This document shows positions 2,633 through 36,370 of a stretch of DNA of 36,370 bases, in pieces (the stretch's first letter is position 1; every line of letters begins with the position of its first letter). Source of the stretch: a virus. Below the pieces are notes generated by a model. That model saw nothing but the letters and a program-made list of their open reading frames with translations, made no database searches and was not told where the DNA came from. The position numbers and the translations under genes are program-made. The stretch lies in the IMG/VR virus record IMGVR_UViG_3300030116_001208, positions 1 through 36,370 of that record. One strand, 5' to 3'.

Positions 2633-3004
2633 TTATAAGCTTAACTGGTCAATTGCACCTCGCAGTTTATTTTCATAAGTTCTGCTCCATATACTTCCAT
2701 TTTTTCTTAATTTTGGTAATTTTAATTCTACCTCTGGAAGTTTTAACCCTGCTTCATACAAATCTTCTTTATTATTTTTATCTGCGTCACACCCCCAAAC
2801 TCCAACGGGTGACCAAGTAAAATTTTCATGTTTTGAAGCATCATACAAATTAATAGTTATCCAAGCATCATCTAAATTGTATAAGCCACTCCATGCAAAT
2901 CTTACCTCTTGTAAAACTGCCATAATAGCGGCCTCTTTAGTTTCTCTGATAGCGTGTGAATTACCACCACCAATAAAAACCAACGCGAGATAATGTTGTT
3001 TCAT
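2633..3004 (-). CDS. Unknown early protein under a strong promoter
   Basis: A 123-residue protein with an AAAGGAG ribosome site before the ATG. It starts MKQHYLALVFIGGGNSHAIR, which looks like a beta strand followed by a glycine turn and helix. The middle is rich in aromatic residues (FAWSGLYNLDDAW) and the C-terminal part is lysine-rich (ELKLPKLRKNG). No known family, signal peptide or membrane segment is recognised. It is the first gene of the short leftward island and lies directly behind the operator-like palindrome and the consensus -35 promoter. A regulated early role is therefore likely, but its function is unknown. Confidence 0.65.
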   Translation of the reverse strand: MKQHYLALVFIGGGNSHAIRETKEAAIMAVLQEVRFAWSGLYNLDDAWITINLYDASKHENFTWSPVGVWGCDADKNNKEDLYEAGLKLPEVELKLPKLRKNGSIWSRTYENKLRGAIDQLSL

Positions 3005-3045
3005 GACAAAACTCCTTTACTGCTTTTTTAAATTGTCAAATAACG

Positions 3046-3073
3046 TACAAGTAAAAATTTACTTGTAAGTAAA
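3046..3073. promoter_or_regulatory. Operator-like pair of overlapping perfect palindromes
   Basis: Bases 3046-3067 are a perfect palindrome with 10-base arms (TACAAGTAAA, two bases, TTTACTTGTA). Its right arm also forms a second palindrome at 3058-3073 (TTTACTT, GT, AAGTAAA). Three alternating half-sites therefore lie side by side. They cover the expected start point of the leftward promoter at 3073-3101, a classic repressor position. The binding protein is unknown; the XRE protein at 35313-35492 is a candidate. Confidence 0.7.
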
Positions 3074-3101
3074 CGATAACACACTTTTTTGTAAATGTCA
3101 A
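3073..3101 (-). promoter_or_regulatory. Strong leftward promoter for the 2633-3004/rusA island
   Basis: Read on the minus strand, TTGACA (3101-3096, a perfect -35) is followed by a 17-base spacer and TATCGT (3078-3073). A TGT just before the -10 makes it an extended -10. Spacing is ideal for the main sigma factor. Transcription should start near 3066, inside the palindromes. Confidence 0.7.
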
Positions 3102-3147
3102 ATACAGAAATTGTAAAGTGACCTAACGTAATTTACGAAAATATCAT

Positions 3148-3205: not shown

Positions 3206-3472
3206 TTAGAAGTAAATACAAAAGTTATGATTAAAAGTAGTAGGTTTCATAGAGGAGCGCATAACGGACAAATAGGTACAATCGTACAAATTTCTCCTAA
3301 CAAAGGTAAAAATATTTTTGTTCGTATCAACTATGAATTAGGAGATGACATAGCTTGGTTGTTCGATGATGAAGTTGTAGCGGTAAGCGACTTAGAAATG
3401 CCAATAGAACCAGTTGACCCAGAGCAAATGAAAAAATGGGTAGCAGAAGCAAAAAAAAGAGCAGGGGCGTAA
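3203..3472 (+). CDS. Small SH3/KOW-like protein
   Basis: An 89-residue protein. The ATG at 3203 has an AAAGGAG ribosome site eight bases upstream, so the longer in-frame extension is rejected. Residues 5-60 read as a small beta barrel: KVMIKSSRFHRGAHNGQIGT, then IVQISPN and a IFVRINYELGDDIAWLFDDEV run, similar in style to KOW/SH3-like domains. The acidic C-terminus (DPEQMKKWVAEAKKRAGA) is helical. No family was identified for certain. It shares its whole leader with the gene at 4561, so the two are probably expressed together. Confidence 0.7.
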   Translation: MLEVNTKVMIKSSRFHRGAHNGQIGTIVQISPNKGKNIFVRINYELGDDIAWLFDDEVVAVSDLEMPIEPVDPEQMKKWVAEAKKRAGA

Positions 3473-5340: not shown

Positions 5341-5497
5341 GGACACTCGGGACAGTATTAAAAGAGAAATAGATAGGCTAGAACCACTAGCCTTACTACC
5401 CAACGCACCGCCATCGGTTAAACAAGATTATCGAGATGCGAAAGAAGCAATGGCGGTATTAGTCAAAAAACTAAGGGAGGAAGGAGTTAAAATATGA
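5318..5497 (+). CDS. 59-residue unknown protein
   Basis: A short gene found in the gap between larger ones. It starts MEIKPEDRDTRDSIKREIDR and ends KKLREEGVKI; the product is highly charged and mostly helical. The ribosome site is AAGAGAGG before the ATG, and the stop overlaps the next start as ATGA. The run AGGGAGGA at 5474-5481, in its last codons, is the exact complement of a loop in the RNA at 33984-34057. The family is unknown. Confidence 0.65.
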   Translation: MEIKPEDRDTRDSIKREIDRLEPLALLPNAPPSVKQDYRDAKEAMAVLVKKLREEGVKI

Positions 5498-5769
5498 AAC
5501 CTTGGGAGGAGTTAAGAAAAAAGCAATCCATAGAAGTAAAAGAACTTTTAGAAATGTTCAGCCATCTAACAATAGTTGAAGCTTCGAGAGCTATGGGAAT
5601 AGATAGCCACGCACTTCGAACACACGCATTTAGATTCGGTGTTGAGTTTGCTAAACAGTACGGTGGTAAAACATCGATAGAAACCGATAAAAAGAAAATT
5701 AACAATCATCGAATAAGTTTACCTAAAGTTCCTTGGGATTTTGATAACGACAAAATAAAACGACACTAA
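5494..5769 (+). CDS. Small protein with a helix-turn-helix-like segment
   Basis: A 91-residue protein. Residues 22-50 (FSHLTIVEASRAMGIDSHAL, then RTHAFRFGV) read like a helix-turn-helix: an 'IVEASRAMGI' helix, a short turn, then an 'SHALRTHAFRFG' recognition helix. The rest is lysine-rich and unstructured-looking. It may be a DNA-binding regulator. The ribosome site AAGGAG lies seven bases before the ATG, inside a longer AGGGAGGAAGGAG purine run. The call rests on the pattern alone. Confidence 0.55.
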   Translation: MKPWEELRKKQSIEVKELLEMFSHLTIVEASRAMGIDSHALRTHAFRFGVEFAKQYGGKTSIETDKKKINNHRISLPKVPWDFDNDKIKRH

Positions 5770-32468: not shown

Positions 32469-32678
32469 TTATAACCTATTAAAAAACCTTCTTAATATAT
32501 AAGATCGTGCTAACGATATAAAAGTAAAAGCTAATGAAATAGACAGCGCATCATAAGTAGTTACTTTATAACCGTGTAAAGGAAGTATAACATAAGTTGC
32601 CGCCGTAGCTATAATATATCCTACAGCTACATTAGTAGTTGCTTCCACCATACTCATAAACTTAGTCTGACTCTGCAT
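32469..32678 (-). CDS. Small two-span membrane protein (DUF7220-like)
   Basis: A 69-residue membrane protein. The start TKFMSMVEATTNVAVGYIIA leads to the first span (about 16-33) and a second follows (about 43-60), with a basic end (RSYILRRFFNRL). The 'E..TN...GY..A......LP..G' pattern resembles the DUF7220 phage family. It overlaps the methyltransferase by 17 bases. The role is unknown; a phage-exclusion or lysis function is only a possibility. Confidence 0.65.
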   Translation of the reverse strand: MQSQTKFMSMVEATTNVAVGYIIATAATYVILPLHGYKVTTYDALSISLAFTFISLARSYILRRFFNRL

Positions 32679-33915
32679 AAGTTTTACCTGTTTCTTCGTT
32701 AACCGCCTCCTGCCCCGTGAAGTCCTGCCAACGTTTAATTATTACATCGCAGTATTTAGGCTCCAACTCCATCACCCTACATTCTCTATTAACTTTTTCA
32801 CACGCTATGAGTGTTGACCCTGAACCACCAAACAAATCTAAAACTAAACCATTTACCTGAGAACCGTCGTTAATAGCTTTTATACATAAGTCCACTGGTT
32901 TCATTGTCGGGTGTAAGTCATTTTTTTTAGTACGGTCTATTCGCCAAATATCCATACCGTTTTTGCCACCGTAAAATTTGTGATTATTCACCCACCCATA
33001 AAATATAGGTTCATACATACTCATATAATCACTGTTGCTTAGAGTATGGTTTCCTTTATCCCATATAATTAAAGACCTACACCGTAGACCAACTCTATCT
33101 AAACTAGCATAATAACCGTCTATACCCAGTCTATAAAAGGTTATATAAAAAGCACCGTCCACATATTCTTTAATAACAGTGTTAATCGAGTCTAAAAAAA
33201 CCTCGCCATCTTTTTTTGACATTTTGTCATTTTTTATACTGCCATGAGAAGCGTTAAATGATTTACTTCCGTCAGCGTGAATACCACCAGTAAAGTCCAT
33301 CAAGTAGGGTGGGTCTGTAAAACACATATTAGCTTTTTTATTTTGCAGTAACTTTTCAACCGAATCAAAGTCGGTGCTATCGCCACATATAAGTCTATGA
33401 TTACCTAAAACCCAAACGTCACCCTCCACAGTAATAGGTTTTTCAGGAGCTTCAGGTACGTCGTCTGCGTCAGTAAGTCCTTCTTTCTCAGGCTCTTGTA
33501 GTAATTTAGCTAACTCGTCTGCATCAAAGCCTGTTAAACCTAAATCAAAATCTAAATCTTTAAGCTCTGAAAACTCTATCGATAACATATCTATGTCCCA
33601 TCCTGCATTGAGGGCTAATTTATTATCTGCTATCACATAAGCTTTTTTCTGTGCTTCGGACCAACCGTCGGCTAAAATACACGGAACCTCTTGTAAATTA
33701 AGCTTTTTTGCCGCTAAGAGCCTGCCGTGTCCTGCTATTATTTCGTTGTCGGTATCAACCAAAATAGGATTAGTAAAACCCCACTCTTTTATACTAGCTG
33801 CTATTTGTGTTATTTGCTCATCGCTATGGGTGCGACTGTTCCGTGCATAAGGTATTAGCGTTTTAATGTCTCTTCGCTCTACCTTATCAGCAGGCCAAGA
33901 CCGTCCATTACTCAT
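32662..33915 (-). CDS. ParB-like nuclease domain fused to a DNA methyltransferase (N4/N6 class)
   Basis: A 417-residue fusion. The start at 33915 (MSNGRSWPADKVERRD) has GAAAGGG upstream and lies after the promoter; the in-frame ATG at 33939 is upstream of the expected transcript start. Residues 16-105 are a ParB/sulfiredoxin-like domain (YARNSRTHSDEQITQIAASI, GHGRLLAAKKL). The methyltransferase has the catalytic DPPY at 201-204, HPTMKP at 335-340 and the SAM motif DLFGGSGST at 360-368, the catalytic-first order of beta-class enzymes. It probably methylates phage DNA, for host-restriction defence or packaging marking. Confidence 0.9.
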   Translation of the reverse strand: MSNGRSWPADKVERRDIKTLIPYARNSRTHSDEQITQIAASIKEWGFTNPILVDTDNEIIAGHGRLLAAKKLNLQEVPCILADGWSEAQKKAYVIADNKLALNAGWDIDMLSIEFSELKDLDFDLGLTGFDADELAKLLQEPEKEGLTDADDVPEAPEKPITVEGDVWVLGNHRLICGDSTDFDSVEKLLQNKKANMCFTDPPYLMDFTGGIHADGSKSFNASHGSIKNDKMSKKDGEVFLDSINTVIKEYVDGAFYITFYRLGIDGYYASLDRVGLRCRSLIIWDKGNHTLSNSDYMSMYEPIFYGWVNNHKFYGGKNGMDIWRIDRTKKNDLHPTMKPVDLCIKAINDGSQVNGLVLDLFGGSGSTLIACEKVNRECRVMELEPKYCDVIIKRWQDFTGQEAVNEETGKTYAESD

Positions 33916-33941
33916 GGGTGCGCCCTTTCGGTTATTCATTT

Positions 33942-33969
33942 ATTATAGCAAAAAAAATCCCCCGCGCAA
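33942..33969 (-). promoter_or_regulatory. Likely late-operon promoter with consensus extended -10
   Basis: On the minus strand TGCTATAAT (33950-33942) is a perfect extended -10. A fair -35 (TTGCGC, 33969-33964) lies 16 bases upstream within the terminator stem-loop. Transcription would start near 33935 and give a short leader before the methyltransferase start at 33915. No other strong promoter was seen in the 27 kb below it. Confidence 0.65.
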
Positions 33970-33977
33970 GGCGAGGG
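33950..33977 (-). terminator. Intrinsic terminator after the structured RNA
   Basis: On the minus strand CCCTCGC (33977-33971), a three-base loop and GCGCGGG (33967-33961) form a stem with one internal mismatch, followed by GGA and eight Ts (33957-33950). It ends the leftward initiator transcript and the structured RNA, and overlaps the next promoter. Confidence 0.8.
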
Positions 33978-33983
33978 AAGTTG

Positions 33984-34057
33984 GTGAGGTTTATTAGTTC
34001 GTAAAAAAGCAGTAATAAGCGAACCTAATTCAAACAGGGAGGAGTTTGAAACCTCAC
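33984..34057 (-). ncRNA. Three-way-junction structured RNA, possible small RNA or 3'-UTR element
   Basis: On the minus strand the 74 bases fold with only one unpaired junction base. P1 is GTGAGGTTT/AAACCTCAC (9 bp). P2 is CAAAC/GTTTG with loop TCCTCCCT. P3 is ATTAGGTTCG/CGAACTAAT (9 bp, one bulged G) with an 18-base loop. It lies 17 bases after the stop of the 34075 gene and six bases before the terminator, so it is at the 3' end of the initiator transcript. It does not match tRNA and no known RNA family is recognised. A DNA-level role (origin or cruciform) is not excluded. Confidence 0.65.
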
Positions 34058-34074
34058 GACCTGTGTAACATAAT

Positions 34075-34536
34075 TTAATCATTTTTCATACGTTTCAAGT
34101 ATTCTTTGTACGGCTCTAGTTGTTTTTCTGCAACAAGCCCCGCCCTTACCATCTGCTCCGCCATCGCTCCCATTATATAATTTTCTCCCACTGGCTCGCC
34201 GTGATTGATTCTATCGGCATTTATTTTTAATTCGTTAGGTTGATATTTTTCAGGTGTAAGCTCCCTAAATTCAGGACGTTTAGGTGCTATTTCTTTTGCT
34301 GATTTACTTATTTCTTTCGCAGTTGGCCACGTTCTAGTTTCTAAGTTTGACAGTAAATTATGCTCAAAATCCTCAAACCATTGACTATAATTTTTGCTAG
34401 GAGCTAATTTTATAACTTGATTACATAAAAATTCTGCTTCGCTTTTCATATTTTCGTCATTGTTTTGAACGGCTCTCGGCGCATTAAGCCGACCTAACAT
34501 CTTTAGTGTTCTTTCTTTTAAATCGTTATTTCGCAT
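34075..34536 (-). CDS. Partner protein of the replication initiator, function unknown
   Basis: A 153-residue helical protein starting MRNNDLKERTLKMLGRLNAP. The middle has NLETRTWPTAKEISKSAKEI, a pattern seen in uncharacterised alphaproteobacterial phage proteins that follow initiator genes. The end is helical and charged (EPYKEYLKRMKND). By position it may load a helicase or assist replication, but no ATPase motif is visible. It overlaps the initiator gene by 11 bases. Confidence 0.6.
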   Translation of the reverse strand: MRNNDLKERTLKMLGRLNAPRAVQNNDENMKSEAEFLCNQVIKLAPSKNYSQWFEDFEHNLLSNLETRTWPTAKEISKSAKEIAPKRPEFRELTPEKYQPNELKINADRINHGEPVGENYIMGAMAEQMVRAGLVAEKQLEPYKEYLKRMKND

Positions 34537-35224
34537 TCAACATCTCACTTAATACTGTTTTTTGTAAATCAAAATTTTCTTGTGGTTCATATACATCATG
34601 CCATCGTTCTTGATTTAACCATGTACTGGCGTGGGGTAAAAATTGTTTTTTTGTATGTTTATGAACATCTATAAAATAGTCTAATTTTTCCATAAGCTCT
34701 TCAAAACTTATTTTCAGTAACGCTCTTGGAAATGCTCGCCTTGCAGGTACTTTTGCTGTTTTTCTCGGATATTTTTCCCAAAACTTATCAAACTGCTCTA
34801 CAACCACATCAATAGAGCGTACTAATATAATAGGTTCATTGGATGGTTCGTTGGATGGTTTAGGTGAACCATGTGCAGGGGTAGGGCTGAATGTCATTCC
34901 GTGGTAGGGGTGAACGTCGTTCAGGGGTGGTCTTGTAGAAGGTAGTTTACTAACAATTTCTAAATTAATTTGGTAATCTATAGTATAACCGTGGCGACAC
35001 TCCTTTTGCCCCGAAACCTTTAAAATACCTAAAGCAAGCATATCTTTTATATGTATTCTAACAGCGCGACTAGACATCTCTAAGTCTGCTGCCATATTGC
35101 CTTTACTTACCCAGATACCACTACCGTCGTCACTGGCTTTATCCGCCATATACATCAAAATAGCTTTTTTTGTAGGCGACCCGACTAATTTTGTTTGTAT
35201 TACGTTCGAAACTAGGTTACTCAT
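34526..35224 (-). CDS. Replication initiator-like protein with winged helix-turn-helix
   Basis: A 232-residue protein. The N-terminal 80 residues (VGSPTKKAILMYMADKASDD, SKGNMAADLEMSSRAVRIHI) match the HTH_36-type winged helix of phage replisome initiators. A flexible linker follows (PSTRPPLNDVHPYHGMTFSP, then SNEPSNEP). The C-terminal part (QFDKFWEKYPRKTAKVPARR, then LPHASTWLNQERWHDVYE) is typical of the same proteins. It probably binds the origin and recruits host replication proteins, since no phage polymerase or helicase was seen. A possible ribosome site AAGGAG is 12 bases upstream. Confidence 0.8.
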   Translation of the reverse strand: MSNLVSNVIQTKLVGSPTKKAILMYMADKASDDGSGIWVSKGNMAADLEMSSRAVRIHIKDMLALGILKVSGQKECRHGYTIDYQINLEIVSKLPSTRPPLNDVHPYHGMTFSPTPAHGSPKPSNEPSNEPIILVRSIDVVVEQFDKFWEKYPRKTAKVPARRAFPRALLKISFEELMEKLDYFIDVHKHTKKQFLPHASTWLNQERWHDVYEPQENFDLQKTVLSEMLNAK

Positions 35225-35814: not shown

Positions 35815-35995
35815 CAAAGAAAAGGAGACTATTTGGAAAGTATTTAAAACTTTAAGAAGTACATCAAACCAAATTGCTGATTGCCACGATTTATGGCTGT
35901 CAGATGTAAGGGATATAGAGTCCGCTTTTTGGGGTTTATATCATGAATTTGAATTTATTAGAAATAATTGTGAGAAAGAAAAGAAAAATGACTAA
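35801..35995 (+). CDS. Second gene of the rightward early operon, unknown
   Basis: A 64-residue protein (MPLSNKEKETIWKVFKTLRS, then IADCHDLWLSDVRDIESAFW), helical with a charged tail RNNCEKEKKND. It overlaps the 35584 gene by 14 bases and the next gene by eight. The same tail is found at 1-37, which marks the continuity of the locus across the window ends. The family is unknown. Confidence 0.65.
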   Translation: MPLSNKEKETIWKVFKTLRSTSNQIADCHDLWLSDVRDIESAFWGLYHEFEFIRNNCEKEKKND

Positions 35996-36370
35996 AATAC
36001 CAGAACGATTAATTGATTTAATTAAAGAAGTTGGCTTAACGGAAAGACAAGCAACATGGAACTGCCACGGTACGCCAGTGGTATTACACAAAGCATTAGA
36101 AAAAATAGCAATAAATAAAGGTATAACCTTTGACGATATGAAGGTAATAGAAAGCTCCGTCAAAGATAAACACGCAGTAATAAGTGTTAGAGGCCATTAT
36201 AAAGATGCAACCGAAGAATCTATCGGTGAGGCAGCGCCTTATAACACCACAAATAAGTATCCTTTTGCTATGGCAGAAAAAAGAGCCAAAGACAGGGTAA
36301 TATTAAAGTTGCTTGAATTGAGTGGTGATGTTTACAGCGAAGAAGAGGCTGACGAATTTAAAAACGAAAA
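35959..36370. repeat. Imperfect terminal direct repeat (right copy)
   Basis: Counterpart of 1-412 with no gaps in the alignment. The last 37 bases of the 35801 gene and the start of the possible annealing gene are shared. See the left copy for the pattern of mismatches. Confidence 0.9.
35988..36370 (+). CDS. Partial second allele of the possible annealing protein
   Basis: The reading frame is open to the window edge (about 127 residues). It is the same gene as 30-620. The conserved parts agree (NCHGTPVVLHKALEKIA and AMAEKRAKDRVILKLLELSG), but the segment between (KGITFDDMKVIESSVKDKHA versus ENIVFDAPTIIESNIKEKHV) is strongly diverged. The 3' part is outside the window. Confidence 0.8.
   Translation, partial: MTKIPERLIDLIKEVGLTERQATWNCHGTPVVLHKALEKIAINKGITFDDMKVIESSVKDKHAVISVRGHYKDATEESIGEAAPYNTTNKYPFAMAEKRAKDRVILKLLELSGDVYSEEEADEFKNE

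Follow-up and report, generated by a model that had tools for sequence, protein, structure and literature searches.

The c4 RNA of phages P1 and P7 is a phage regulatory RNA that acts on messages, and the alphaproteobacterial sRNA ar14 carries a CU-rich unpaired motif. Phage-encoded RNAs that act on messages also include sar of P22, OOP and PreS of lambda, and VpdS of VP882 (PMC12197685). The CU-rich unpaired stretches of Burkholderia double-hairpin sRNAs are predicted to pair with ribosome-binding sites, and overexpression of ncS27 slows growth (PMC5688073). Uncultured marine phages have so far yielded few known phage small RNAs. The element described here lies on the minus strand of a 36,370-nt virus record (IMG/VR IMGVR_UViG_3300030116_001208, analyzed at full length and referred to as the window). 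Judging from its sequence and that of its relatives, it is probably a phage-encoded, trans-acting sRNA that ends in a terminator and pairs with ribosome-binding sites. This RNA offers a structural alignment backed by covariation, fixed seeds, and a predicted target, and it would link a phage replication operon to translation control.

Neither the window nor six relatives matched an Rfam family at the gathering threshold, and ARAGORN found no tRNA or tmRNA in the window, in keeping with an earlier note on this DNA, which had recognized no known RNA family and nothing tRNA-like. The best Rfam neighbor is anti-hemB (RF02837; ncS04 of Burkholderia), with 24.0 bits against a gathering threshold of 49.5 (E 7e-4 in a 181-base search). 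Anti-hemB likewise has a first hairpin with the loop CUCCUCCCUG, followed by a GC-rich terminator, and a hairpin presenting CUCCUCCCUG is invariant in 20 versions of the phage RNA. However, anti-hemB lacks the enclosing P1 stem of the three-way junction and is bacterial rather than phage-borne. Two unpaired CU-rich stretches are likewise found in betaproteobacterial double-hairpin sRNAs (RF02278; ncS27 group) and in Neisseria NmsR, but these consist of two hairpins in a row without a closing stem, and the RF02278 model gives 14.8 bits against a curated 50. The model of ar14 (RF02344), which resembles the phage RNA in its CU-rich unpaired motif and terminator, gives 11.1 bits against a curated 58.8. 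The c4 antisense RNA (RF01695) had no match in a permissive scan up to E 10. Unlike c4, sar, OOP, PreS, and VpdS, the phage RNA is not antisense to an overlapping gene, and its position and architecture differ from theirs. By analogy, the phage RNA may act like the Burkholderia double-hairpin sRNAs, yet by these scores it is a member of none of the families. It combines features of bacterial-type trans-acting sRNAs, namely a fold with compensatory changes, a 3′ intrinsic terminator, and a beyond-chance seed match to a translation start.

BLAST searches with the element found nothing in named phages; the one plasmid match, in Duffyella, was 33 nt long and resembled a terminator. The sole match of a DNA-pattern search in bacterial genomes, in Fusicatenibacter (L205), was judged unrelated because its reverse strand is an ordinary Shine-Dalgarno sequence plus start. 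The covariance model R1 gave no convincing new match in Venkman, P26218, HTVC106P, or MTase-only loci, and its 26-bit matches in L196, L198, and L199 were driven by the terminator. No description of the RNA element was found in the literature searched, which covered few subscription journals.

The compact three-way junction at 33984-34057 (minus strand), which the earlier note had considered unlikely to arise by chance, has a minimum free energy of −18.9 kcal/mol. Dinucleotide shuffles reach −8.4 ± 2.3 kcal/mol (z −4.68), and 0 of 200 are as good. The wider stretch 33940-34075 (minus), proposed earlier for comparison with shuffled sequence, also folds better than shuffles (z −3.30), and the z-scores of six relatives range from −2.2 to −4.0. 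P1 pairs GUGAGGU (34051-34057) with ACCUCAC (33984-33990), a helix seen both in the fold and in covariation. It encloses the P2 hairpin CAAAC-UCCUCCCU-GUUUG (34031-34048), whose loop 1 (34036-34043) is the anti-Shine-Dalgarno sequence UCCUCCCU, and the P3 hairpin (33994-34028), which has a single bulged G and opens into the 18-nt loop 2, CUUAUUACUGCUUUUUUA (34002-34019). The stem lengths of 9, 5, and 9 bp given earlier hold in part. The thermodynamic fold has a P1 of about 8 bp, a P2 of 6 bp with an 8-nt loop, and a P3 of 6 bp, but it can accommodate the longer P3 with its single bulged G (UUA-G-GUUCG/CGAAC-UAA), which forms a continuous 10-bp helix in the relatives L023 and L031. The RNA probably starts 3-8 nt ahead of P1, at the segment ACAGGU (34064-34059), which is the same in 20 distinct homologues and whose GGU can pair with ACU (33979-33981), lengthening P1 in the minimum-energy fold. 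Just beyond the junction, as previously noted, lies a strong intrinsic terminator with an 8-bp stem and an 8-nt T-run (33978-33950, minus); it is kept in 20/20 versions, with U-G/C-G and G-C/A-U exchanges.

The element ends a replication operon. An O-like replication initiator (34526-35224, minus; PHROG 270, E 2e-30) is followed by a 153-aa gene (34075-34536, minus), which stops 10 nt short of the RNA. Close relatives of this gene, which was not found in named phages, are encoded at thirty IMG/VR loci, and nearly all of these loci carry the element and its terminator directly behind it. Several of their contigs look like marine metagenome sequences, judging by the contig names. With a DNA-pattern scan and further loci, 20 distinct versions were collected in total, two of which are diverged (L025 and L043/L065/L069).

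On a plain MAFFT alignment of these versions, each of P1, P2, P3, and the terminator has pairs in which both partners have changed (5 pairs, 27 cells), and the covariation score is reached by 0 of 500 shuffles. Paired cells amount to 93%, compared with 33-56% when the partners are slid. The second pair of P1 is C-G in 10 versions and U-A in 9, and one P2 pair is G-C, A-U, or C-G. P3, which MAFFT misaligned in some rows, shows two-sided changes in 2 of 7 pairs on the unfitted alignment and in 6 of 7 on one fitted to the covariance model. The structure-fitted alignment, which leans toward the structure by design, contains 9 covarying pairs (35 cells). All these counts are inflated because the sequences are related. 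The two P1 states require about three changes on the gene tree, which means few independent events in P1 and P2 and more in P3. The absence of compensatory changes in P1-P3, which the earlier note had named as grounds for discarding the structure, was thus not observed, since every helix has double changes.

The loops behave differently from the stems. Across the 20 distinct versions, loop 1 (CUCCUCCCU) is unchanged, and so are the loop-2 core, UACUGC with its following U-run, ACAGGU at the 5′ end, GAGG of P1, and AACUCCUCCCUGUU around loop 1. Varying stems with fixed loops are the pattern of a base-pairing RNA. The earlier note had overlooked the loops as likely carriers of information, loop 1 as an anti-Shine-Dalgarno sequence and loop 2 as a match to a phage leader. 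Stem-rich 3′ ends protect mRNAs, and the position between stop codon and terminator would suit a passive element, with no pairing target, whose junction protects the end of the replication-operon mRNA from exonucleases and aids termination. This explanation is unlikely. Protection needs stems, not fixed loops, whereas here the loop cores are fixed and the stem pairs change, and CCUCCC recurs in differently built 3′ UTRs, as described below.

For the pairing sRNA, both loops were scored against all phage gene starts. Loop complementarity predicts a target in the leader and ribosome-binding site (3009-3030, minus) of a 123-aa gene (2633-3004, minus), where the leader reads UAAAAAAGCAGUAA-AGGAGUUU-UGUC-AUG. 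UAAAAAAGCAGUAA forms a perfect 14-nt complement of loop 2; AGGAGUUU, adjoining it and in the right order, is complementary over 8 nt to AAACUCCU of P2/loop 1. Outside the element, the genome contains no complement longer than this 14-nt site. Matches of at least 14 nt over gene starts are reached by 8 of 2000 shuffled RNAs, and the two-segment match of 14 + 8 nt (score 22) by 0 of 3000 over all gene starts. Nearly the same leader ranks first in G004 and G007 (scores 18 and 20).

The target site is not conserved wherever the RNA and the gene co-occur. Present in the window, G004, and G007, it is absent from the diverged homologue of the 123-aa gene in G008, which has a similar upstream promoter region and unchanged RNA loops. 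G005 and G006 contain no exact complement of loop 2 besides the element itself. Because these three relatives lack the site, the leader of the 123-aa gene is not the sole target and cannot explain the invariance of the loops. Therefore, the loops are also held fixed by something else, perhaps host messages. Scanning for the loop-2 target motif by DNA pattern lacked the specificity to be informative. Upstream of the 123-aa gene, the window contains a strong-looking promoter (TTGACA-17-TATCGT; 3004-3110, minus), then the palindrome TTTACTTACAAGTAAA with a partial repeat, which resembles a repressor operator. This promoter and palindrome region is largely kept in G008.

A second target, predicted from its loop-1 match, comprises the ribosome-binding site and first codons (5474-5513, plus; AGGGAGGAAGGAGUU ... 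GGGAGGAGUU) of a 91-aa gene (5494-5769). The start of this gene (5494) is the best or a near-best partner of loop 1 among gene starts in seven genomes. Its sites drift in relatives, and the site at codons 4-7 was demoted as a conserved target for that reason. The AAAC of the loop-1 seed sits inside the P2 stem, and P2 must therefore open partly for pairing. At the end of the 91-aa gene, some relatives carry an anti-Shine-Dalgarno-like GGGGAGG...CCTCCCC (L034, about 3260-3360). Elsewhere in the window, two different genes (3203 and 4561, plus) have the nearly identical leader ACATATAAGCAAAGGAGAATCACTATG.

In the proposed mechanism, an RNA of about 110 nt would be made from the end of the replication-operon transcript, either from its own promoter or by 3′-UTR processing, with the intrinsic terminator forming its end. 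A consensus promoter just upstream of the RNA is convincing in L069 only and weak in the window. P1 would join two hairpins, each displaying a fixed single-stranded seed. Purine-rich ribosome-binding sites would be the pairing partners of loop 1 (UCCUCCCU); specificity would come from loop 2 (UUACUGCUUUUUUA), which may also be a U-rich Hfq site. With both loops on the start region of a message, such as that of the 123-aa gene (a predicted target located ahead of the RusA resolvase gene), ribosome entry would be blocked. We infer that the RNA accumulates, pairs in vivo, and represses its targets.

The CCUCCC motif is not confined to this fold. L028 encodes a 153-aa protein 78% identical to that of the window, and its 3′ UTR has CCUCCC between the complementary arms GGUAGUA/UACUACC, although different pairs are favored in its computed minimum-energy fold. 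The more distant L162/L164, L163, and L191 likewise carry the motif, after the stop codon of the gene and ahead of the terminator; it is absent from the 3′ UTRs of the L196 and L200 groups. Shuffled 3′ UTRs contain CCTCCC with a probability of 0.003 to 0.10, so that its presence in 5 of 7 lineages exceeds chance, for a motif that was picked after seeing the window. L191 is counted as a weak case because its motif lies outside any hairpin loop and the motif's complement is followed by ATG. An improbable extension of these observations is that several marine podovirus-like lineages end the replication operon with an anti-Shine-Dalgarno RNA on unrelated scaffolds, hidden or exposed in alternate hairpins. 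Translation or processing of the replication mRNA would then arm the RNA, silencing selected phage or host messages. If the recurrence of the motif in the same 3′ UTR on differing scaffolds holds, it would indicate selection for function rather than for one fold.

An alternative hairpin can also be drawn for the window itself, in which pairing of ACAGG and GAGG with CCUC-CCUGU buries the anti-Shine-Dalgarno sequence. In such a bistable cis element, ribosomes ending the 153-aa gene, or 5′ processing, would mask ACAGG and free the anti-Shine-Dalgarno sequence, which would act on its own operon or influence termination; this reading as a whole is unlikely. The alternative hairpin would explain the invariance of ACAGG and GAGG, and in transcribed prefixes it or a close variant forms before other structures (about −9 to −11 kcal/mol). 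Candidate complements, chosen by eye, occur at the same place in L028 (ACUGG/CCAGU), L162 (AUGUAGGG/CCCUGCAU), and L163 (GUGUGG/CUACAC); no equivalent was seen in L191. In the full RNA, however, the three-way junction has an advantage of 4-7 kcal/mol in 5 of 6 versions, with the two equal in L025 only, and the invariant pairs of the alternative hairpin yield no covariation within the main family. A switch between the two structures is possible.

A structure at the DNA level that is extruded from a single strand and serves as an origin or as a packaging or recombination site is highly improbable. The inverted repeats lie beside replication genes and the plus strand of the element folds as well (z −3.95), but G-U pairs are found in the minus-strand reading only (in the terminator of 11/20 versions and also in P3), where the opposite strand would have A-C mismatches. 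This indicates minus as the transcribed strand. A DNA structure would also leave the attached intrinsic terminator and the fixed pyrimidine loops unexplained. The earlier note had left open a phage small RNA, a 3′-UTR regulator, or a DNA-level origin structure. The first two are favored by the G-U pairs, terminator, fixed loops, covariation, and retention of an RNA behind the replication gene in relatives without the downstream methyltransferase gene, whereas an origin is not supported because the fold is kept through G-U pairs and the loops are fixed like base-pairing seeds.

A small protein, read from an ATGA that overlaps the stop of the 153-aa gene (MIKLCYTGREVSNSSLFELGSLITAFL...), is likewise very improbable and was rejected. 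Its frame is open in the window and most variants, and its NSSLF and TAFL correspond to the fixed loops, but synonymous changes make up only 19% of its codon differences, compared with 66% for the final 50 codons of the gene upstream; loop 1 falls in a different frame in L017, indels in L017, L018, L019, and L025 shift the frame, the frame ends after seven codons in L028, and it would run through the terminator. This unconserved frame crosses a stretch that the earlier note had called non-coding. Small ORFs on the opposite strand, behind the Shine-Dalgarno-like complement, are not conserved between versions (compared by eye).

Beyond the element lies a ParB-methyltransferase fusion gene (32662-33939, minus) with its own TATAAT. 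Control of this gene in cis was rejected because the RNA persists where the gene is missing; L017 and L028 keep an RNA behind the replication gene without the ParB-methyltransferase directly downstream. The TATAAT (33939-33957, minus) directly follows the terminator T-run in most versions; the methyltransferase promoter appears to begin there and to overlap the terminator. Some relatives carry the fusion gene at 99% identity and others, with similar neighbors, at 66%; the gene is absent directly downstream in L017 and seems to be swapped as a module. The nearest named matches of the terminase, at 45-49% identity, are in a Methylophilales phage (49%), Rhodoferax phage P26218, and pelagiphages, which relates the genome, by this gene, to pelagiphage- and Methylophilales-phage-like podoviruses. 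The ends of the record (1-412 and 35959-36370) are 84% identical over 412 nt, as diverged copies of the 5′ part of one gene, and represent either tandem paralogues or the closure of a circular genome from two strains.
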